From Arenicola marina (lineage: Eukaryota > Annelida > Polychaeta > Arenicolidae): a stretch of 64,000 bases of DNA. Each line of letters starts with the position of its first letter. Position 1 is the first letter of the stretch. A model generated the notes under the pieces. The model was not told the origin of the DNA. It saw nothing but the letters and a program-made list of their open reading frames with translations, and did no database searches. A program made the position numbers and the translations under genes. The DNA is taken from the NCBI GenBank assembly GCA_964019135.1, contig OZ025250.1, positions 47,399,174 to 47,463,173 on the forward strand, in the 5' to 3' direction. Shown here piece after piece: positions 16,701 through 31,210 of the stretch.

Positions 16701-18444
16701 TTCAGTCGACAGGACGAGCCTTCTTCAGTAACTTGATTATATTTAAGTCTCACAATTAATTGCGGCATTAATGTATGGAAGAATGTGGGCATTTTCTATG
16801 GTTGATATATATATAGACTAAAGTATTACAGATGGTGTCTTATATACGGGCGATCAAAAATGATGGATAATCCTTGTCCGCTGGATCGATTTTTTGGTAA
16901 CGGGATAGCTTGATATTTATTATCTTCTCTGTCGATATACAACAAATTACGTTGCAAGGTAAGATCATCGGGCTAGATCGGTAGGCGTTGTCGCCATGGC
17001 TATGTGTAATCAAATAATCTCCGTTCGTCGCATGCCTACTGAAGGTCACCGACAGCTGATTTGTAAGAGTTTCTTTACTTCGTCTTTCTATATTGATTGC
17101 CCGAGCGAGAACGGACTGTTTGAATGGAACATATATTAATGGGACTTGAAGGTAAAAGTGTAGATCTGTGTTTGCAAAAGAGGTCAACAAAATATTGAGA
17201 ATTGAAATGTTTTTACCTGTTACTTAGGACGCACCAAGCGGAATCAAAGATTATTACAATATGTCGAAGTGTTCTCCTTCACTGAGCTGCCACGTCTACT
17301 ACACTACATAGATACAGCATCGGCCAAAGATACTTCTATCTATCATTTAATTCTTAGACTTAGACGCCTCCCTGTGACAACCTCCTGGGACAACAATTAA
17401 AGATGATCTCGCATGTATCAGTTGGATATATACCTAATTGGGAAGACAGAAATGCGCGCAGATAGTAAAATAAACAGCATTTGGTTATAACTAAACAATG
17501 TTGATCTTATCGCATGTTAATGACTGAACACGTTAAAAGTCACGATTCGCACACATTGCATTATATCCTTAATGCATCGATCACATGAAAAAGTCCAGCA
17601 CCACTGCCAACAAGCAAAGTGACGTGATATGTTTATATTAGCGTAACCTCGACACTGGCTTACTAAACCATTAGCATAAACAGAGCGTGAACTCATAGGA
17701 AGAGTTCTCGGTGAGGCAGACCAATTTTTGTGATCACCATCATGATGAGCTAAAATTCTATACAATAGCCAGGAGACGTTATGACCAGCATCATTGTGGG
17801 TGACAATATATTCATTCATTTATTCATTATAGCTTCAAGTGACGATCTGTAGGCAATGTGTCCAGCTGAAACGACGTGAAAAACACAATTAATATGTCGT
17901 CATTACAGCCCATAGCATAAAATCCCACTGCACATTTACATACTGATTATCTGGAGACCAAATCAACCAGTAAAACAAATTAGCTCAGTAAACGTGCAAT
18001 TACGACAAATATTGCAAACGTCTCTGATGATGTAAACATCATCAACTGCTATGGGTCTGTGTCAACTAATTCCACTGGGAATGGGGGGAGCAGCAGAACA
18101 GCAAACAGAGCAGCAAGTAGAAGAACAACTGAGAGGAATCAGAGTGGCCAACAGGGAGGGAATAACGTAGGATCCTGGTATAGCAAAGAGAAAAGAAAAC
18201 ATGAATACAAACAGAGCGTGGAAGAGTAAAAAGCGAGCGGAGTGACAAACACAGCTCCCCAACGGACGAGACCCGAATATTTGCTGAATGAACTTGGCCA
18301 ATATTCAAAGGAATGTGAATATTGATTAGATTTTCATGTCAAGGACAAACTATCTATTATTACTAGTCAAGTAATCAAGTATCACATTTACCTCACATGC
18401 TAACAATAAAAATATTTCAAGCTCAATGCTTAAAACCTTATTTA
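16701..18444. other. No gene seen
   Basis: AT-rich DNA with short open frames on the minus strand (16840-17190 and 17517-17819) that lack recognisable domains or splice context. I cannot support a gene here. Confidence 0.4.
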
Positions 18445-18645
18445 GACTCCTATTATAACTTGGCCATATATTACCATTATGAGCAAAGAGCTGTGAAAGG
18501 TCATACCAGCAAGCGCACCTGTGCCGTGCGAAACGGCCTCCAACATCCCCACACGCTCATTTTCAGACTGACAAGACAAATAGAAATATCCATTATCTTC
18601 TCTAACATGTTATTAGACGAGGGGTAAAACTTATTTATCCATTAC
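18445..18645 (+). repeat. Left terminal inverted repeat of the helicase element
   Basis: This pairs with 25643-25844. Strong similarity runs from ACCATTATGAGCAAAGAGC (about 18473) inward to CATTAC (18645). Weaker, same-length similarity continues outward to GACT at 18445. Confidence 0.85.
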
Positions 18646-18725
18646 GTTAAGACGGTAACAATCCCATTTGCTTGCAACAAAATAATTCCTAAATCACCAG
18701 GTCGGCCAGGACAGTTCTAGTTCCG

Positions 18726-18735
18726 GTCACGTGAC
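18726..18735. promoter_or_regulatory. E-box-like GTCACGTGAC near helicase start
   Basis: The palindrome GTCACGTGAC, next to an ETS-like TTCCGG, lies 31 bases upstream of the helicase ATG (18766) and just inside the left terminal repeat. It is a plausible core promoter site for the element. A similar CCGGTCACGTGAC is at about 50505. Confidence 0.3.
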
Positions 18736-18765
18736 ACATTAGAGGTGGTAGCGTGCGTTCGTGTT

Positions 18766-21132
18766 ATGGTCGATATGGCGGAATCTTCAGCGCGAAATGT
18801 ACTTGAGCTTGTCAAGCAAGACTTGAAACTTAAATATAGCCAAAACAAGGAACAGATACAAGCTCTTGTTTCCCTTCATGAAGGAAAGGATATATTTTAT
18901 CTGTTGCCAACTGGCCACGAAAAAGTGACATCCTTGCTATGCTCCCGTTGATAGAGACAGAGCGAGTTGATTTTACATCTGAGTGTGTGTGGGGCGGGGG
19001 GGGGGGGGGAGGGGGGAATTCATTATATGTAGTAGTATTTTCTTAGGGTTCTGTAATATATTGACGGTGTCTGTCATCTTTATAATTATAAAATAAATAA
19101 TTATATCAACATTGAAAGTTTATGGGCGTACGGTATATTTTGTTGATATATATATGACGCTGAGGTTTGGTTGATTATGTGTGATAAATAATGGTTCTTG
19201 TATGTCAAGCATTTAAATGGTTATGTAAAAACGTATTGATTGGTATATATAAACGTTAAACCATACACTTTAGTAAACCATATATATTTATTAAACACCA
19301 ATTGGACAAGGCACTGAAAATAAAAAGATTATTTAATATAACTATATTTTTCTCAACAGACAAAAATAGATTCCTAAAAAAAAAGCGGCATTTAATCCAC
19401 GATACATACATATAAATATGCTAACGTAAATGTATCTGTTAAGTATATTTTATCCACAGGAAGAATCAAACCAGCGGCATATAGTTATTATTGTTTCCCC
19501 ACTTCGGGTATTGGTAAAAAATCAAGTATCCAGATAGACGGAATTAGGAGTGCCTGCCATCGCGCTCCTGAAACAAAACGAGTTAAAGGCCCATGAAGCG
19601 ACAGGTATCTTTTATTTAAAACAAGTGCTTGTTATATTTACGAATGCACCAACTATGTCCATTTATTTATAATTATTTAACGTTTGCACTTATTTGTTAG
19701 CAACACACAAAAACAAAATTGTATACACATATACATATTGCAGAAATTCAACAAGGAAAATATTCCCTCATCTACTGTTCGCCCGAATCCATAAGTCACG
19801 ACCACGGGTTCAACCTGCTCAGCATGATACGAAATAAAATATGGCTGCTGGCAGTGGACGAAGTACATTTGCTCATCACATGGTAAATATAAATGTATAA
19901 TTAAAAATATATAATTGAACTTTACGGGCTTCTTAGAGACAATACATATGATCATGACGGTTGATACCCAATACCAATAATATAGCTATTTTTTTTATAT
20001 TGTTCTCTGTAGGGAAATTCTTTCCGAAACAAATACAGGCGGGTGCGAGAATTGCGTGCAGTAATAGGACGTGTCCCCGTGGCCTGCACAACAGCAACAG
20101 TGAACCAGTCAATGATGGACGCCATCTCGTTGTCTCTCGGAATAAACAAGTTTGAGATAATAGCACAGGTACCAGACAGGTAAGTTATTACCAAAAAATA
20201 GTGTTATCATTAAACACTGCATCAAAACCTTGTGTTTCAGTTACCATATTATTTTCTTATTGAAAAATATATGACCATAACAATATTCAATATACAAACA
20301 TAAAAAATACTACTTATATGTTTCAGGCCTATTATCTTCCTGGATATAATAGACGGAACGTGTGAAATTTCTTCGCTGCAGTGGTACCTGAACGAATTTA
20401 TATCGGACAAAGACAAAGCCCCGAAGGCGGTTATATTTTTCAGTACGTGAACCCATGTCTGTTATTAACAAGAAACAAAAATAATTACAATCATCATCGG
20501 CGTATCCAGTACAAAATGAAGACACGAGATGATATATTATGAACGTCATAGTTAAAGCTATATAACATGACATTTTACATCAACAAATAGTACAAGTGCT
20601 AGAACCGACAGATGCTGATATGCTCATCAGCTTCTTCCATGCGAAGTTAGACAAAGGCAGTGAAGAGGAAATTCTGGCAGAATTTGCTGAACCTCATTCA
20701 CAAATTCGATGTCTGATCGCTACAATAGCGGTTGGCGTAGGAGTAGAGATTAAAGATATACGATACACCATACACTGGGGTCCCGCGCCCGCCATCATTG
20801 ACTATTGGCAGGAAGTAGGGCGTGGAGGTCGAGATGGTAAACCCACAAAGGCAATCCTTTATACTCCACGATACACTATGGACAAGAGGCGCTGCGACGA
20901 ACCTATGCTCACCTTGGTTCGTCAGGCTGAATCGACATCTATTAGACGTTCTGTGCTGTCAGAGGTTACGGTCGATTGCCTGGCAAGTCCGACATTGACA
21001 AATGCGGCGGAAAAAGGAATTGCTGTGGGTACTGCGAAACAACAGAAGATTACAATGTTACGTAGTTTTCACTGTCGGTGTTCCCTCCTCAAAGCCGCTA
21101 AGCGGAGCCCCCTCGTTTTCCAAAAGTCATAG
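18766..21132 (+). CDS. RecQ-like DNA helicase of the TIR element (decayed)
   Basis: The exons are 18766-~18950 (MVDMAESSARNVLELVKQDL, then HEGKDIFYLLPTG), 19460-19604 (HIVIIVSPLRVLVKNQV, motif Ia), 19744-19882 (DEVHLLITW, motif II), 20013-20179 (FRNKYRRVRELRAV, then PVACTTATV, motif III), 20327-20442 (PKAVIFF, motif IV) and 20591-21132 (FFHAKLDKG, IRCLIATIAVGVGVEI, then DYWQEVGRGGRDG, motifs V-VI). Most junctions keep phase. The set and order of motifs are RecQ-type, superfamily 2, 3'-5' DNA unwinding. This copy is broken: the Walker A frame slips (the expected GKS is lost), exon 2 has an in-frame TAG and exons 3-4 are out of phase by one base. The C-terminal zinc-binding region is poorly kept. 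In the intact element it would presumably unwind DNA during transposition. Confidence 0.8.
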
Positions 21133-24100
21133 TCAGTAGAAAGGGCGCATAACCGCAATCGGAGCTTTTCTTCATCACGAAGATCAGGACGATGATGACT
21201 GAAAACCGGATACGCTGCATGATGGCGTCCGGATGTGTATCCAAACAAAGACTCTGGGTGCAACTCTCCCACTAGAGTTACCACATCTGGGTGTTTGCGA
21301 ATACTGCGTGAAGACGATCCTTCGTTCTGTAGGGCGAAACTCTGTACAAGGGTGTCATGGAACACTTTGCCGAATTCCCTTCCTATCTGGCTGGATGGCT
21401 TCGCTTGTTTGTCGGTATAGCGACCGCGGGAACGTTCCATCATCTCTGAAAGAATAGAATATGGTTATACATGTTATTAGTATTAAATATTACATACATG
21501 ATATTATATTTCGATAAAACTTGTTAATATTATTATATATATCTAATTACCATTTTATTTAATGTATGATAATAATGTGAGCCATCACGCATAAAGTAAT
21601 ATTAACTTATTCAGTTAATGGTTTACATATAATTGTCACTAATTTTATATAGTAAACAATATGTTGTACGTACCTAATAAAATGGCCCATTGTATGCTTA
21701 CCTTTGAAATCGTTGTTGAGGAATTCGTTTACGAGGTCGAGTCCTATGTTTCCACCCTTTTGTCCGCGCAATTTTGCCACACACTCCCATGTCATCTCAT
21801 GGGCCAGGCGATCGGACAAACCTCCACCTGTGTCTGTATCAATTTTTTTTAAGTTATATAAAAATAAACAAAGCGACATTTATAAATTAACTTAAGGGTG
21901 TAATGTGTTGTAATAAATAATGAAATAAAATATTAATGTATATCAAATATACAAAACAACACTTTTTATATACGTTTAGAAATATTATTGTATATCAAAT
22001 ATACAAAACAACACTTTTTATATACGTTTAGAAACATGGACACCATTCTCGGTCCATCACCTTCTCGTACCGTGTCGCGGTTGGCCAGGTGGCACAGATC
22101 CCGCCACAGCACTTGTAAGGAGTACTGCTGGACGTTGTCGTCGTTGCGACCGTGCTCCGAACAGTACCAGGGCCGGCCTGTAAGGAAATTTAATAAAAAC
22201 CCGTAAGATTAATACATTTATAATGTTTCTAATAGTGTCCTTTTTACTTTTATAATTGACACAACTATATATTTAAGGAACAGATTTCGTTTGTGTATAC
22301 CAGGAGTTAGGTTGGGTCTGTCATTGAGACACTCCGGGTGATATTTTTCGAATGATTGGCACTCGTCCCCTCTGGTGCAGACGGTCATGTGGAGGTCCGA
22401 TGCCCCACGGCGCTTTTGACATTTACAGTAGATGTAATTGCCACTGGCCAGAAAATCCGGGGAGCAGAACTAGTCTCCGTTTGGCTTGTTGCGCAACACT
22501 GGGTTGGCACACCCGAAGTTGAACCAACGTCCCACACAAGATGGGTTGCAACATAAAACCATGTCGTCGTCAGCGTCTAAGGGCAATAAAATAATTAAAT
22601 AGTGATATTTTTTAACCTTACGTAAAATTACTCACTTCAAAGTGATTAATACATATATACACATATAACTTAATCATTACAATATTGTCATATATTAATT
22701 ACATTGGCCACAAGTGCAGTATGGGTAATCAGACATCTTTGCCCTGGTATTTTGCTCACGTCGTGGAGCTCCCCAAACACGAGCCACGATCCGACGGGCA
22801 AGTTTTTTCATAAGGGTCCATTTGTCTCGTCCCTCAGGGACATCTGGAATGGCATCAATGTCATTCATGTTACACAGTGGCATAGCCAGGAGCACCACAA
22901 AGCACGCCAAAAAGTCCCAGACATGCTGAAAGTGTTCATCACGTCTGCCTTGAGTGATCGATGACGGAATCTGTCTTTCAACTGGTACAATGTGCCAATG
23001 TCAGCCATACTCCTCTCGGTGAACAACTGGTTCATCGTGTCTTGCATCAAGATTCCCTCTTAATGGAATTCTTGTGGAGTTCCTTCCAGTCCTTCTAGTC
23101 TTGACACTGGTGTAAGTCCTACGATGGGCGCTCGTTTTGCGTGATTCATTCGCTCGAAACTGAGTTGGTCTCCGTTACAAGGTACCTTGTGTACCCCGTC
23201 CGCGCCAACACGAGGCGCGTACCGCATCAAGTGCTCCATGATCTGGATGACCCCAGTTGTGGAAGTAGGGTTGGCTTCAATCACCCCCAGATTGACCACC
23301 TGAGACTGCCGCCATTTCTCCTGTGTGTGCGTGCGGCACATGCCATGTTACCTTGTTGACCAGGTCCTGGAAATAAGGGATGTACGTGACCAGGATTCCC
23401 TAGGTGACGACCTGGCACCGCTCTTCAAGAAACAACCAATCACCGGCCTGGGGCAAGAACACTTGGGGTGCCATGTCACTTGCAGCTACGGTGGTCACGT
23501 CGTTAAGATGAAGAGAAGGAAGGCGGTGCTCAACCGCGAAAAATAGCCCCCACACGAGGAATTGATTTCTCTCTTCCAGGCTCTGATGCTTCTTTTGGAC
23601 CTGCATTTGGACGTTATCCCAACCTAGGCTAAATGATTTGGGAGGGGCAGGAACATTTGGTCTCCTTAGTCCCAAACGCAAGGGACGATTTTCAACCGCG
23701 TTCTGAAATAAATTGTAATGTTATTAAAGGACGCTTTTATTAAAAAAAACATTTCCGATTTCATGCTAATATAATAAAAGCGCATAATGAAATTAAATAT
23801 TTATCATACTTTGCTTTATGCATTTTATTATAGAGGTTGTGATTTAATTTCAATAATGGTTATTTCATTATTTGAAACTATAAAATTTATATATAAATAA
23901 TATATTGCCCAAATGTTTACCTGAACAGACACTTTCTTCTCAAAAATGTGTTTGTCATAGGCCAGGGCGTGACTGTCGTTATGCGCTCTCACAGCACCTG
24001 CGCACTGGGTGATCCCAAGTGAATGGAGAACCCGGAAAGCAGCGGTACTGGTGCCCTGCCGCCAGAGTTCAACCCCTACAGATGACTGGGTGAATTTGTA

Positions 24101-25186
24101 TAGCCTGGGCGTCCGGAAGAAGGAGATAACCGACAGTATGGTGCCAAGCTGTCTGCGCCACATCTCGTCAGTTTCATCGTTGGTCATCATTCTTAAAATA
24201 TATAATAATCCTGTTATAAGTAAAGTAGGTAATACAATATTTGTCATCGACATATACAGTAAAGACATAGATGTACTATATAAAATTTGACACAATAAAG
24301 TATATAATGTTTGTTTTACTAATCTATTTTATAACAGATTTCAATTATATGATCATAAATGTATTTACCTTCTTGCCCTTTTGGGTCCTAGAGATACAGA
24401 GCGACGTAGTTGACTCGGTGAGGGTTGCATTGCTCCCAAAAGGAAAGACGAAAGTGAAATTTTCTTGGTGCATTCTTCCAGTACGTTGTACCAAGAAAAG
24501 TTTTGGAGATTCTCCAGTGATGAAGGCTGTGATAGAGGGTTTATTGTGTCCTTGCGATGTCTTCCTGTCACATGGGCCAGCTCCGTCCTAACTCCCGCAC
24601 GAACTGTGCATCATAGCATTTCTAGCGGCACGGGAGTGCTTCCACAACCAGCGAAAGGCTTTGTCGTACTTGCTATTGTTTAGGTATCGACACGCCTGAG
24701 CCAAAGCTCAGCCTGTATTATCCTAATCTCTGGGTCGCTCCCATTATCTTCTTTTTCTTGACCCCTTTCCGGTGTGAGGCGATTGTCTGATCTCTTCTGG
24801 TCGGGAAAACACGGGTTGCCCGGAGAGAAGATCCGCTTTACACCCGGCGGCGTCCTCAGCACGAAGGGAGTCTTCGGCGTTATGGGAGTAACAGATGCAG
24901 AATCAGAAATCTGTAGGCTAGGTGTAGTCGTATTGGGCGTTTCATGTGTATCCGTAGGTGTGATTAAACCATCTCTTCTGCGAGTGCGTGGTCCGGTCCA
25001 AGTTCGACGACTGACGCCGGCTCTAATACGCCGCACACCAGGTTCGCGGATCAAGCGGGAGCGACAAAGGTGACAAATGAAGCTGGTATTACTTGATGTA
25101 ACACATCGGCGAAATACACTAGACGCCGTGTATGGGGATGTTTGGGCCAGTAACTTGTATCTAGAAAGCGAATAGATAATGCACAT
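21069..25186 (-). CDS. DUF6589-like putative transposase of the TIR element (decayed)
   Basis: Read right to left: 25186-24680 has a CxxC finger (FICHLCRSRLIREPG) and a Ser/Thr/Pro-rich linker. About 24660-24369 follows (KAFRWLWKHS, then RHRKDTINPLS and NFSWYNVLEE, in shifted frames), then 24191-23921 (GTILSVISFFRTPRLYKF...HSLGITQCAG). Next is 23702 to about 22695 (FSLGWDNVQMQVQKKH, CNGDQLSFERMNHAKR, SRLEGL, MADIGTLYQLKDRFRH). About 22560-22300 is a Cys-rich PHD-like finger (CCNPSCVGRWFNFGC...YHPECL). Smaller exons lie near 22180-22030 and 21837-21703 (GGNIGLDLVNEFLNN). The last is 21443-21069. GDQL-x-x-ER, RLEGL and G-x-NI-x-LDL-x-NE match the DUF6589 family as I know it. Several stops and slips are present. 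The transposase role is inferred from position between the terminal repeats. Confidence 0.65.
21938..22037. repeat. 52-bp tandem duplication in an intron
   Basis: GTATATCAAATATACAAAAC and the following ~30 bp occur twice, starting at 21938 and 21990, with almost no differences. It lies in an AT-rich intron of the transposase gene. Confidence 0.9.
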
Positions 25187-25642
25187 AAACCATATGATGA
25201 AGTGTACGATGTTGAGAGCGGCAAATATATTAAAATATATACGAATATATTATAATTAAATAATCGCTAATCTTTTATAATTAATTACAGCATTTTAGGC
25301 TTAAAGATAATTATTCTACAATCATTAGAATTAAAACATGGGGATAATATTTTTTTATATTTCACATAGTGTTAATATAAAAGCATATATATAATCACAG
25401 GTTGTAAGATTAATAATACTTTTTTATAATAATATAATTATTATATGCATACCATGGATGAATATATTCTTTTTAGGGGCCTAGATAGGAAAACAATTTG
25501 GCTTTGTAAATAATATTATAAATTTATCGATTACCATTCACCCATACCGCTAAAGGCTTAAGCAAAAAGCCAGAAAGTTCCTATACATTATTTAATTTGT
25601 TCGTATATTCTTTGGGAAGGCTTTCACTAAATAGTATACAAA

Positions 25643-25844
25643 GTAATGGATAAATAAGTTATACCCCTCGTCTAATGAACATGTTAGAGAAGATAATGGA
25701 TATTTCTATCTGTCTTGTCAGTCTGAAAATGAATGTGTGGGAATGTTGGAGGCCGTTTCGCACGGCACATGTGCGCTTGCTGGTATGACCTTACACAGCT
25801 CTTTGCTTGTAATGGTCATGCATGGCTAATTATGACTACAAGTC
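25643..25844 (-). repeat. Right terminal inverted repeat of the helicase element
   Basis: This is the reverse complement of 18445-18645, with about 10 differences in the inner 174 bp. The outer 31 bp match at roughly two thirds of positions. Confidence 0.85.
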
Positions 25845-26358
25845 AGGCACTGCACCACACGTTACATGTCACTGACGCAGACAAAATAACTCTCCTTCTC
25901 ATTATATTCAACGTTAGACCATGCATGACCGGAAATAGGTCAAGTCACAGTGCCAATGACGTGTGTTTTAAAGCTATTAACATCCCTTTTAGTCCTTGGA
26001 ATCAACTTGATTTCATATAAGTTTCAAGAGAGAGGGAGAGAGACAGAGGGGGTGGGGGTGTAGGGCAGATTAGGGAGGGCCCAGTGTGGCTGATTTGGGT
26101 GGCGGGAGAGTGGCACCCTGTCCCTCCCTCACAGAGACGTTTACAGTGATACTATTCTAAACGTAAACAACATGTCAAATATCACTTAAAGCTGTGACAG
26201 CACCACCCCCACCCACCTTCATTCCCCCCCCCCTCACCAGGGAGAAGGTTGGTAGGGTAGAGGGTGTGGGGTATGTTTACTTATCAGCAATCATCTTAAC
26301 AAGGTGTGAGCGACGTGATGACGTCACTGTTACTTACGCGGACGGCGCGTTGTTGACG
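25845..26358. other. No gene seen
   Basis: A GA/G-rich stretch at about 26025-26090 and a C run near 26228. This is probably the 3' flank of the NHL-repeat exon. Confidence 0.5.
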
Positions 26359-27159
26359 TCAGCGGCTCACGACCAACAGTTTGTTGTTGTTCGTGACGTA
26401 GAGGAGGTGGTGGTGGGGGGGGCATGATATAAACCGGGGCCGCACCTCCCCCAGCCCCACCCTGGTGACCGTCTCCCCCTCCCGGCTCACCACGAGGAGA
26501 GAGCCATCCAGCCAGTCACACATCACAAAGTGTTCCCCGTTGTGGGTGACGCCACGGGGAGCAGAGTGTCCTGGGAGGTTGAGGACGCGGCCCGGAGCGT
26601 CGTCCCCGGTGTACAGCAACAGGCAGGAGGGGTCGTACACCACCAGGATGGTGTCCTGGAGAACGGACACATACCACGGCCGCCACTCCCCCTTCACCTC
26701 TGGCGGCGTGTTGAGGGTGGCCACCACCCCGCCCCCCGGCACATCCAGCACACAGACACCGTCCTTGCAGCACACATAGAGAGTCTGGTTCGACTCCCTG
26801 TAGGCCAGTCCATGTGGCTCTGTCAGGCGGCCTGTGGTCAGCAGTGTCCGCGTCCGGACGACCTCGCCACCCTCCAGCCGGACTCCCTGGACCTGGCCAT
26901 AGCGCTGGGAGATCCAGGTCTCCGTGTCTGTGGCGGTAATACCGCGTGGATACTGGACGGGGGACTCCGCCACGTAGCGGTGGGCTGTGTGGCTGCCTTC
27001 TGTGGTCCGCCGGAAGACCACCACCCTGTCTCTGTCCCAGTCCGCCACCCACACCAAGTCATCGTGGGCGGACACACCCCAGGGGCGCTGCAGCCGCCCG
27101 GGTCCGGCCTCCTCCCCCACCACCCCCGTCACCCGCAGACCGCCATACACCGCCGCATC
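26359..27159 (-). CDS. NHL-repeat beta-propeller, last exon (TRIM/LIN-41-like family)
   Basis: This is an open exon of 266 codons ending in TGA at 26361-26359. It is preceded by an acceptor (TTTGTCGTTGTAG, AG at 27161-27160), so the first residues are DAAVYGGLRVTGVVG and earlier exons must exist. About six degenerate NHL-type blades are visible: RPWGVSAHDDLVWVADWDRD, YPRGITATDTETW, EPHGLAYRESNQTLYV, a central WYVSVLQDTILVVYD, APRGVTHNGEHFVMCDW, and VRPRFISCPPHHHLLYVTNN. Such propellers bind protein or RNA partners in TRIM2/3/71-type ubiquitin ligases and related proteins. No RING or B-box exon is seen in the window; the missing 5' part would lie to the right, across the minisatellites. The exon is GC-rich compared with its surroundings. 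A lone pseudogene fragment is possible, but the frame is intact. Confidence 0.7.
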   Translation of the reverse strand, partial: DAAVYGGLRVTGVVGEEAGPGRLQRPWGVSAHDDLVWVADWDRDRVVVFRRTTEGSHTAHRYVAESPVQYPRGITATDTETWISQRYGQVQGVRLEGGEVVRTRTLLTTGRLTEPHGLAYRESNQTLYVCCKDGVCVLDVPGGGVVATLNTPPEVKGEWRPWYVSVLQDTILVVYDPSCLLLYTGDDAPGRVLNLPGHSAPRGVTHNGEHFVMCDWLDGSLLVVSREGETVTRVGLGEVRPRFISCPPHHHLLYVTNNNKLLVVSR

Positions 27160-27770
27160 CTACAACGACAAACATCTCAGTGACAACCAAACATATAACT
27201 GACGTGGGGGGGAGGGGGTGGAGTATGTCAGACGTTAAGGTCAAGGCCGCACGTGCCGCCTTTGGTGTTGTACATTTCCACCGATGTCTGAAGGGTTTCC
27301 TGGCGACTTGGAGACTGAAGTAAACAACGACTCACGGCGGACTGCAGTCTGTGAAGACAAGGGATGTTTATCTTAAAAGTTTAAATTCAATGCCTGTCGT
27401 CTGCAAATTATGTAAACAAAAACTATTAAGTTAGTATGCTATACATGCATAGCGACTGGCTGGATGCGGAGGAGGGAGTGGGGTACACTTGCACTGGCGA
27501 TAGATGGCAGACTGCACTGATCGGGTGTCAGAAGGCAGCACACGTCTTGCTTAAAAAACGTGGCTGGTCAGGAGACGTTAAGTTGAAAGAATTAAACGAG
27601 CCAACTAGCGGAACATAGCGGAAACAGAAATAGTAAACGTACAGAAAACCCGGGAGGAGAAAAGGGCGGAAGGAAAAGGGGAACAAACACTACAGGACAA
27701 GGAAAAGAACATAATGTAATTATAGTAGCATGTGGGAGGGGAGTAGAGCGGGAAACTGTGCGTGAAACAG
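27160..27770. other. No gene seen
   Basis: Probably the start (5' side) of the intron upstream of the NHL exon. No RING/B-box coding sequence is visible. Confidence 0.4.
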
Positions 27771-27774
27771 AGCA

Positions 27775-28800
27775 ACATGGAGCGGTAAACAGGGAGGGGT
27801 ACAGGGGTGAAAACAATCGGAGGGGGGCAGAGGCAGAACCAAAGGCAGGGAAAGGAGTAGTGCGGAAAACAGAGAGGGTACAGGGGTGGAAACAATGGGG
27901 GAGGGGGGGGGGGGCAGAGCGAGAGGCAGGGAGAGGAGTAGTGCTAAAAACAGAGAGGGTTACAGGGGTGGAAACAATGGGGGAAGGGGGGGGGGCAGGG
28001 TGAGAGCAAAAGGCAGGGAGAGGAGTAGTGCGGAAAACAGACAATGATCTAGGGAGGAAAAGAATGGGGGGGGGAGGAGAGCGAAAGGCAGGGAGAAGAG
28101 TAGTGCTAAAAACAGAGAGGGATACAGGGGTGGAAACAATGGGGGAGGGGGGGGGGAGGCGAAAGGCAAAGAGAGGAGTAGTGCGGAAAACAGAGGGATA
28201 CAGGGGTGGAAACAATGGCGGAGGGGGGCAGGGGGAGAGCGAAATGCAGATTGAGATTGAGATTGATACACGGGTGGAAACAATGGGGGATGGGGGGAGG
28301 GGGGGGTGGCGAAAGGTAGGGACATCAGTAGTGCGAAAAACAGAGAGGGATACAGGGGTGGAAACAATGGGGGAGGGTGGAGGGGTGAGCGAAAGGCAGG
28401 GAAAGGAGTAGTGCGGAAAACAGAGAGGGATACAGGGGTGGAAACAATGGGGGAGGGGGGGGGGGGCGAAAGGCAGGGAGAGGAGTAGTGCGGAAAACAG
28501 AGAGGGATACAGGGGTGAAAACAATGGGAGAGGGGGGGGGGAGCGAATGGCAGGGAGGGGAGTAGCGCGGAAAACAGAGATTGATACACGGGTGGAAACA
28601 ATGGGGGATGGGGGGGGGGGCGGCGAAAGGTAGGGAGAGCAGTAGTGCGGAAAACAGAGAGGAATAGAGGGGTGGAAAAATGGGAGAAGGGTTGGGGGGA
28701 GCGAAGGGCAGGGAGAGGAGTAGCGCGGAAAACAGAGAGGGATACAGGGGTGGAAACAATGGCGGGGGGTGGGGGGGGGCGAAAGACAGGGAGAAGACTA
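27775..28800. repeat. Purine-rich minisatellite A, ~80 bp unit
   Basis: ACAGGGGTGGAAACAATGGG recurs about every 78-82 bp (27879, 27961, 28123, 28201 and so on), each followed by a G run and GCGAAAGGCAGGGAGAGGAG. About 12-13 copies. The + strand is almost all purine, and minus-strand frames of several hundred codons here are repeat shadows. Confidence 0.95.
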
Positions 28801-29850
28801 GCGCGGTAAGCAGGGAGGGGTACAGAGGTGAAAAACAGGGAAGGGATTAGTTCGAAAAACAGGACGGGTACAGGAGTGAAAACAATCGAGGGGGATAGAG
28901 CGAAAGGCAGGGAGAGAAGTAGCCCGGTAAACAGAGAGGAGTACAGGGAGGGGAACAGTGCGGGAAAAGTGAGGGTTACAGGAGTGGAAGCAGGGAGGAG
29001 AATAGTGCGGGAAACAGGGAGGGGTACAGGGAGGGGAATAGTGCGGGAAACAGGAAGGGGTACATGGGTGGAAACAGGAAGGGAACATTGCAAGAAACAA
29101 GGAGGGGCACATGGGTGGAAACAGGGAGGGGAACAGTGCGGGAAATAGGGAGGGGTACATGGGTGGAAACAGGAAGGGGAACAGGAACGGTTACAGGGGT
29201 GGAAACAGGAAGGGGAACAGGAAGGGAAACAGTGCGGGAAACAGGGAGGGGTACAGGGATGGGAACAATGCGGGAAAAGTGAGGGGTACAGGAGTGGAAA
29301 CAGGGAGGGGAATAGTGCGGGAAACAGAGAGGGGTACATGGGTGGAAGCAGCGAGGGGAAACGTGCGGGAAACAAGGAGGGGTACATGGGTGGAAACAGG
29401 GGGGGGGGAGGATCAGTGCTTTAAACAGGGAGGGGTACAGGGGTTGAAACAGGTAGAGGAGCAGTGCGGGAAACAGGGAGGGGTACATAGTTTGAAGCAG
29501 GGAGGGGAAAAGTGCGGGAAACAGGGAGGGGTACAAAGGTTGAAGCAGGGAGGGGAAAGTGCGGGAAACAGGGAGGGGTACATAGGTGGAAACAGGGAGG
29601 GGTACATGGGTGGAAGCAGGGAGGGGAACAGTGCGGAAAACAGGGAGGGTATAGGGGTGGAAGCAGGGAGAGGAACAGTGCGAGAAACTGTAAGGGGAAG
29701 GTACAGCAATAAAGGGAGAGGCCCAGAGCAGAAAACCACGAACACAGCGGGAAACAAAGAAGGGAAGAGATCGGAAAACAGGGAAGAGAACAATGTTGGA
29801 AGCAGTGAGAGCAACACAGCGAGAAACAGGGAGGGGACCAGCTAGGATGG
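28800..29850. repeat. Purine-rich minisatellite B, ~51 bp unit
   Basis: GGGAGGGGTACATGGGTGG followed by AAACAGG and GTGCGGGAAACA recurs at about 51 bp, with about 20 diverged copies. It grades into array A on the left. Confidence 0.9.
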
Positions 29851-30434
29851 GAGGACAGCGGAGCCGGAAACATGAAGAGATATATGGCGGTAAACGGAGA
29901 GGAGAGCGGAGCGGAAAACCGGGTGGGGGGAAGAACAGTGCGAGAACAGAAAAGGGGTCGCGTGCAATGACGTGTGATGGAAAGGACCGAGCCAAAAAAC
30001 AGGAAGCAGGGAGGGAAGGAGATTGGGAAGCAGGGACGAGAACAGTGTTGGAAGCAGTGAGGGGAATCCTGCAGTAAACAGAGAGGGAACCAGGGAGAGA
30101 AAGAGAGAGGAGAACGGAGCAGGAAACAGGGAATGGGAACAGGAAGGGAAACAGCGAGGAGAGCGGAGCGGGACACAGGGGGGCAGAGCAGGAAACACGG
30201 GAGGGGCAGGGCGTAAAACAGGGGGGTGGGGGGGGGCAGCGGAGGGGAAAAGGGGACAGAACGGGAAAAGGGGACAGGCACAGACTGGGAAACGAGGAGG
30301 GTAACAGTGCGAAAAACAGAGCGGGTGGTGCTGGGGTGGGGGAAGTGGGGGCAAAGCATACAGTGGAGTAGTGCAGAAAACAGGCACGGAAAAAGAGCGG
30401 GAAACAATAGGAGAGAAACTGTGACGGGAACCGA
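29851..30434. repeat. Degenerate purine-rich transition region
   Basis: Diverged GGAAAC / GGGA-rich sequence links arrays B and C. No clear period and no gene. Confidence 0.6.
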
Positions 30435-31210
30435 GGGTAGGGGACATGAGCGGTGAACAGAGCGGTGAACAGAGAAGGCAAACAGAGGGTTCCACAGAGA
30501 GGGCAAACAGAGCGGCAAACAGAGAGGCAAACAGAGCTCCGAACAGAGAGGGCAAACAGAGCGGCGAACAGAGAGGGCAAACAGAGCTCCAAACAGAGCG
30601 GCGAACAGAGAGAGCAAACAGAGGGTTCAACGGAGAGGGCAAACAGAGCGGCGAACATAGAGGCCCAACAGAGCGGCGAACAGAGAGATCAAGCAGAGGG
30701 CGAACAGAGCGGGCAAACAGAGAGGGCAAACAAAGCGGCGAACAGAGAGGGCAAACAGAGCGGCGAACAGAGAGGGCAAACAGAGCGGCAAACAGAGAGG
30801 GGAAACAGAGCTCCGAACATAGAGGGCAAATAGAGCGGCAAACAGAGAGGGCAAACAGAGCGGCGAACAGAGAGGCCCAACAGAGCGGCGAACAGAGAGG
30901 GCAAACAGAGGGCGAACAGAGAGGGCAAACAGAGCGGCGAACAGAGAGGGAAAACAGAGCGGCGAACAGAGAGAGCCAACAGACCGGCGAACAGAGAGGG
31001 CAAACAGAGCGGCGAACAGAGAGAGCCAACAGAGCGACGAACAGAGAGGGCAAACAGAGGGGCAAACAGAGAGGGCAAACAGAGGGCGAACAGAGAGGGC
31101 AAACAGAGCGGCGAACAGAGAGGGCAAACAGGGCGGCGAACAGAGAGAGCCAACAGAGCGGCGAACAGAGAGGGCAAACAGAGGGGCAAACAGAGAGGGC
31201 AATAGAGAGC
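30435..31210. repeat. Minisatellite C, 25-bp unit (12+13 halves)
   Basis: Alternating CAGAGCGGCGAA and CAGAGAGGGCAAA halves give a 25-bp unit, about 30 copies. It is open in several frames on both strands (for example ANREGKQSGEQRGQTE on +), which is a property of the repeat. Confidence 0.95.

Follow-up and report, generated by a model that had tools for sequence, protein, structure and literature searches.

Do the two genes enclosed by long inverted repeats in the genome of the annelid Arenicola marina form a mobile element, and if so, of which type? The locus lies in a 64,000-nucleotide stretch (assembly GCA_964019135.1, contig OZ025250.1, positions 47,399,174 to 47,463,173 of the forward strand; hereafter, the window), for which a sequence-only reading had proposed a repeat-bounded element carrying a RecQ-like helicase gene and a gene related to DUF6589 (PF20231). 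We found that the element is a DNA transposon and not two host genes, and that both genes of the window copy are broken. It is best explained, with a probability of roughly 0.8, as a decayed cut-and-paste transposon of the AcademH type, an assignment made by comparing its helicase and 9-bp target duplication with the description of AcademH only.

Alignment with dispersed copies and with an empty site at another locus, L046, placed the element at 18461..25828 (7368 bp, no strand assigned). The inverted repeats had first been detected as 18445-18611 paired with 25678-25844 (167 nt, 89% identity) and 18612-18648 paired with 25640-25676 (37 nt). At both ends of 18445-25844, the outermost 16 bp proved to be flank plus target duplication; the sequence-only reading, which had used these limits, was thus right about a repeat-bounded element and set each end 16 bp too far out. 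Its description of repeats of about 200 bp with inner parts about 94% alike agrees with what we observed: the left (18461..18650, + strand) and right (25640..25828, - strand) terminal inverted repeats are identical at 174 of 190 positions, and the inner 37-nt part is 95% identical. The sequence common to the two-ended copies starts with TAGCCAT; its window counterpart is TGGCCAT at 18461, with the other end at 25828. The target duplication of the window copy reads ATTATAACT on the left (18452..18460) and ATTATGACT on the right (25829..25837), matching at 8 of 9 positions with one mismatch.

We searched the Arenicola genome with the left-end 301 bp and obtained 41 listed matches (40 of 56 first-look candidates were scored), many of which form oppositely oriented pairs 1-4 kb apart. 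Of these matches, a subset of 20 surrounding stretches was examined. Three of them hold full-size copies next to the window (L017-L019), and 12 hold shorter copies, 1.1-4.1 kb long, with both ends; in one the right end could not be aligned (L024), and four show one end only (L020, L026, L027 and L028). An exact 9-bp direct repeat lies at the element boundary in 11 of the 12 shorter two-ended copies, and no direct repeats of 7, 8, 10 or 11 bp were found at the boundary in any of the 12; the sole copy without an exact 9-bp duplication, L010, lies among consecutive Cs. No target sequence was common to the flanks of the 11 copies compared (L025 was left out), apart from one weak pair (L009 and L012). 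Across 12 loci, Rfam gave one match, a threshold-level tRNA inside the L009 copy.

The three full-size copies have the flanks of the window and the same target duplication; the region is therefore a segmental duplication, and L017-L019 were rejected as independent insertions. A further unit of this duplication, L046, is empty: its alignment to the window runs to 18460 and resumes at 25829, and the two parts overlap by exactly nine bases, a single copy of ATTATAACT. This empty site fixes the ends of the element and assigns both genes to the inserted unit. The flanks of L046 are 88-90% identical to those of the window, whereas those of the element-bearing units are 95-98% identical, which fits a split of L046 before the insertion. 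Of the checks that the sequence-only reading had suggested, searching with the terminal repeats yielded other same-ended copies (the shorter two-ended ones, the full-size ones being segmental duplicates), and an empty site, here in a paralogous unit, gave the 9-bp target duplication. Dispersed shorter copies with the same inverted-repeat ends, their 9-bp target duplications and the empty paralogous site show that the element is mobile.

The array itself, comprising L017, L018, L019, L046 and the window, is a tandem segmental duplication at 47.18-47.42 Mb on C3 with units of roughly 50-66 kb, the element being present in four units and the empty site in one; the insertion probably happened between duplications of the array. 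On C19, sequences related to the left repeat (88-89%) occur at 24.80, 24.86, 24.93 and 25.05 Mb; these four are spaced by 64.9, 64.5 and 117.9 kb, much like the C3 array, and one of them, L026, contains helicase-like sequence that is 71-75% alike.

The two spliced genes are arranged tail to tail, as had been proposed. The + strand gene is, judging from its translation, a RecQ-family helicase core. Its exons, delimited by translated frames and by tblastn with the helicase of a related copy, C225, lie at 18775..18983 (motif I; 3' limit approximate), 19460..19604 (motif Ia), 19744..19882 (motif II, DEVH), 20013..20179 (motif III, TTATV), 20327..20446 and 20591..21065 (motifs V and VI, QEVGRGGRDG; recQ_fam E = 3.9e-17). 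Helicase_C (PF00271) matched at 20566-21132 on the + strand (E = 5.6e-11). The RecQ motifs quoted in the earlier reading are present in these translations, and both profiles and solved structures point to a RecQ-type enzyme: E. coli RecQ was the best structural match, then WRN, RECQ5 and BLM, with RNA helicases from E = 8e-8. The curated NCBIfam recQ_fam cut-off of 219.8 bits was not reached by the pieces scanned, the best of which (L029, 385 aa) scored 141.4 bits. In the window copy, exon 1 has a frameshift beside motif I, exon 2 contains an in-frame stop, and the frame of exon 6 is shifted before the last cysteines.

The C225 helicase is intact, with 414 residues, a cysteine-rich end and six exons, separated by GT-AG introns, each exon matching one of the window copy; it has what we take to be motifs I (PTGHGKS), II (DEAH), III and VI. 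Among the best 120 of 640 protein matches, the nearest relatives were short RecQ-core proteins with helicase-core domains only, from sea star, freshwater mussel, priapulid, oyster, pearl oyster and sea urchin. RQC and HRDC domains, which not all RecQ proteins have, were not listed in the animal relatives P0003-P0008, for which PF00270 and PF00271 only were given, plus PF04851 in two.

On the - strand, tblastn with the C225 DUF6589 protein and the open frames delimited an interrupted transposase-like gene at 21081..25249, with segments at 24704-24609, 24271-23933, 23681-23313, 23326-22910, 22937-22032, 21834-21679 and 21446-21081 and an N-terminal part at 24680-25249 supported mostly by open frame alone. 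The DUF6589 motifs named in the sequence-only reading occur in the translations, and the frame at 23060-23347 matched PF20231 above the Pfam cut-off (E = 2.8e-8; 33.3 bits versus 27). Its reading frame changes near 23320, and stops interrupt the gene at 23060-23062 and in the first of two PHD-like fingers. All three putative catalytic residues are still encoded, at codons that we counted by hand: a first D in GWDNVQ (23616..23618), aligned with D348 of the protein P0001 and kept in 16 of 20 alignment rows; a second D in GDQLSFER (23168..23170), aligned with D497 and kept in 19 of 20; and an E in LDLVNEFLN (21724..21726), aligned with E868 and kept in 17 of the 19 rows with a residue.

The DUF6589 protein has a predicted RNase H-like fold with D, D and E at the catalytic places. 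Its proposed role as a transposase gains support from this fold and these residues, and we consider it a likely DDE transposase. Foldseek without VIA-align placed PHD fingers first, with no transposase among the best 50 matches listed. General profile scans of the DUF6589 protein set (A1) turned up no family named KDZ, and no search aimed at KDZ was made. The name DUF6589 was not found in the literature searched; most subscription papers were missing from it, so the link may still have been published. The label PF20231 appeared in one optics paper as a chance match.

In the Arenicola genome, the DUF6589 profile gave 100 listed matches, with each exon counted separately and 102 of the 172 candidates scored; 14 control genomes gave none. 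A first protein query, perhaps swamped by acidic stretches, recovered 2 proteins among 7994 candidates, and an amphioxus query recovered 29; members come from amphioxus, echinoderms, hemichordates and bivalves. Of eight neighborhoods judged, six pair DUF6589 with an adjacent RecQ-like gene (the window element, L029, L039, C225, L041 and L042); none was found in the 10-kb stretches L047 and L048. Here, C225 joins L040 and L043; its allele-like partner at 98%, L044, was excluded from the count, and L031, L032 and L037 were left out as too short. In C225, L029, L041, L042 and the window element, the two genes run tail to tail; in L039, they start back to back. L039 is a DUF6589 lineage whose N-terminal zinc domain resembles ZAD (zf-AD, E = 6e-4, below the cut-off). 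The C225 DUF6589 gene encodes 1078 residues in seven joined exons, the first without a clear start codon. C225 was rejected as a second family for defining ends (it has perfect 155-bp repeats without a target duplication, and the C7 partner, which has flank in common with it, looks allelic), as were the C260 and C6 copies, which have no clean ends and no helicase.

Several relatives deserve separate mention. The sea-urchin proteins P0129, P0130, P0131 and P0144 (Lytechinus and Diadema) have lost the first catalytic D and could be domesticated or dead copies. P0133 of Branchiostoma lanceolatum, named ING4, is a DUF6589 relative apparently named from its PHD finger, a likely misannotation, and P0147 is a DUF6589 protein whose 4950-bp contig was binned as bacterial (MAG Sedimenticola sp.) and perhaps represents animal-host DNA. 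The Patiria miniata helicase P0003 and DUF6589 protein P0124 are on contigs listed at the same size (19,347,424) and may be neighbors. Minisatellite arrays beyond the DUF6589 gene in L042 (7519-8208), L041 (7946-9603) and L047 (7863-10000) are reminiscent of Rehavkus transposons; the L042 array has 15.4 copies of a 44-bp unit and lies between the DUF6589 and helicase genes, as does that of L041.

Diverged copies retain a signature of constraint. Between C225 and C4, the last helicase exon (169 codons) gave dS 0.89 and dN 0.066 (dN/dS about 0.07), and one DUF6589 exon (309 codons) gave dS 0.94 and dN 0.139 (dN/dS about 0.15). For the close DUF6589 pair C260/C6, dS was 0.08 and dN 0.021; two helicase pairs with C18 gave dS 1.55 and dN 0.493, and dS 1.6 and dN 0.49 (ratio about 0.3). 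The other 11 of the 16 pairs had dS above 2 or infinite and were little informative. The low dN/dS between diverged copies indicates that both genes were kept by selection while the elements diverged. The helicase may be more constrained than DUF6589, to judge from one pair and one exon each.

These results fit a mechanism in which the DUF6589 DDE transposase would bind the inverted repeats, excise the element and join it to a target cut with a 9-bp stagger, a step that is well supported. The RecQ-type helicase, encoded on the opposite strand, may act in the same reaction, either by unwinding the ends of the element or by clearing, so that it can be repaired, the gap that strand transfer or excision leaves; its association with DUF6589 and the selection on it suggest that it helps mobilize the element.

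Tandem PHD-like fingers, degenerate in the window copy, were placed from translated frames at approximately 22330..22725 on the - strand, and they are predicted to lie within the catalytic domain of the DUF6589 protein. The homologous region of the A1 profile matched ING-type PHD fingers in PDB twice, at neighboring sites (best E = 1.8e-15). At the places that we assume correspond to the ING cage (Y, M and W), conservation among rows that have a residue is 18 of 19 in finger 2; in finger 1 it is 10 of 17 for Y, 15 of 18 for M and 15 of 17 for W. The window lineage has lost the W of finger 2 (KYH for WYH), leaving finger 1 to carry any H3K4me3 binding there; finger 1 of C225 retains Y, M and W. 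H3K4me3 reading is thus a testable prediction. That the transposase reads this mark and steers insertion or activity to active chromatin, with its RecQ partner as a required co-enzyme, is a tentative idea that we hold to be doubtful, and a CpG bias fitting promoter targeting was not seen (observed/expected 0.37-1.06 in the joined flanks of 11 copies versus 0.74 in the window). If it were true, a built-in finger reading a histone mark in an element that also brings a helicase would represent a novel mode of action, parallel to RAG1/RAG2. In that system, the PHD finger of RAG2 is linked to a DDE recombinase; here, by contrast, the partner gene is a helicase and the fingers would lie inside the transposase itself. 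RAG1L-RAG2L transposons share the convergent two-gene layout, according to PMC7204232.

The sequence-only reading had named Academ as the closest class, and this was a good place to look. AcademH is reportedly named in Kojima 2020, Mobile DNA 11:15. PMC10045372 divides the Academ superfamily into AcademH, which has a helicase and 9-10 bp duplications, and AcademX, which has a nuclease and 3-4 bp duplications. Like AcademH, the window element is a DNA transposon with a 9-bp target duplication and a helicase encoded within its ends, and relatives of both of its proteins occur in animals; the AcademH assignment follows from the helicase and the duplication. AcademX, which possibly shares a superfamily with the window element, differs in its shorter duplications, and the 10 open frames of the window that were scanned had no XPG match.

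DUF6589 was set beside Academ by description, and its name is missing from the literature searched. The element could accordingly represent a separate, unnamed superfamily pairing a DUF6589 transposase with a RecQ helicase and resembling AcademH in duplication length and helicase only. We regard this as unlikely, as AcademH is described by just this combination in animals, a helicase together with duplications of 9-10 bp (PMC10045372).

Weighing against the AcademH assignment is the likeness to Rehavkus, for which PMC6446971 lists 9-bp duplications, inverted repeats of 26-400 bp, a PHD finger in the transposase, a minisatellite before the 3' repeat and one ORF; a PHD finger inside a transposase is consequently not a first. 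The window element could then be a Rehavkus-type, MULE-related element in which the finger and the 9-bp duplication are ancestral and a helicase was gained, and the arrays of L042, L041 and L047 would suit that history. However, the single listed ORF leaves no room for a helicase (PMC6446971), no MULE family was among the 24 Pfam families matched by 20 A1 members at E up to 10, and the window element has no minisatellite before its 3' repeat, the arrays in 18400-25900 having only 2.1-2.4 copies. Rehavkus is the weaker rival, and we consider this origin highly improbable.

The Kolobok target is TTAA, whereas the family studied here has varied 9-bp duplications. A Kolobok-type origin like that of KolobokH, which also joins a DDE transposase with a RecQ helicase, therefore has next to no chance of being correct; in PMC9587614, KolobokH is reported from fungi only, and a red-algal Kolobok, Kolobok-1_CCri, has its RecQ helicase on the complementary strand. 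Because these elements carry such helicases, the presence of a RecQ helicase in a transposon has precedent. The idea of two host genes that an unrelated repeat happens to flank, to which the shared flanks of the other three full-size copies might lend color, is ruled out by L046, where precisely the interval from one repeat to the other and one 9-bp duplication are missing.

Under the AcademH assignment, an element type with a helicase and such duplications has already been described, and the window element most likely adds a member. What it adds is the recognition of DUF6589 as probably a family of DDE transposases, its maintained association with a RecQ helicase, and PHD fingers predicted within the catalytic domain. 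A Pfam family of unknown function thereby acquires a likely function, and DUF6589 genes are probably transposases or their remains rather than ordinary host genes. With a RecQ helicase kept beside a transposase under selection, a helicase role in cut-and-paste transposition becomes testable, and the PHD fingers yield a direct prediction on chromatin reading.

To the right of the element, a 266-aa open frame at 26359-27159 on the - strand looks NHL-repeat-like by eye and is perhaps a host gene beside the insertion. Farther right, a long tandem-repeat-like tract at 27750-31200 also occurs in L045 and L046.

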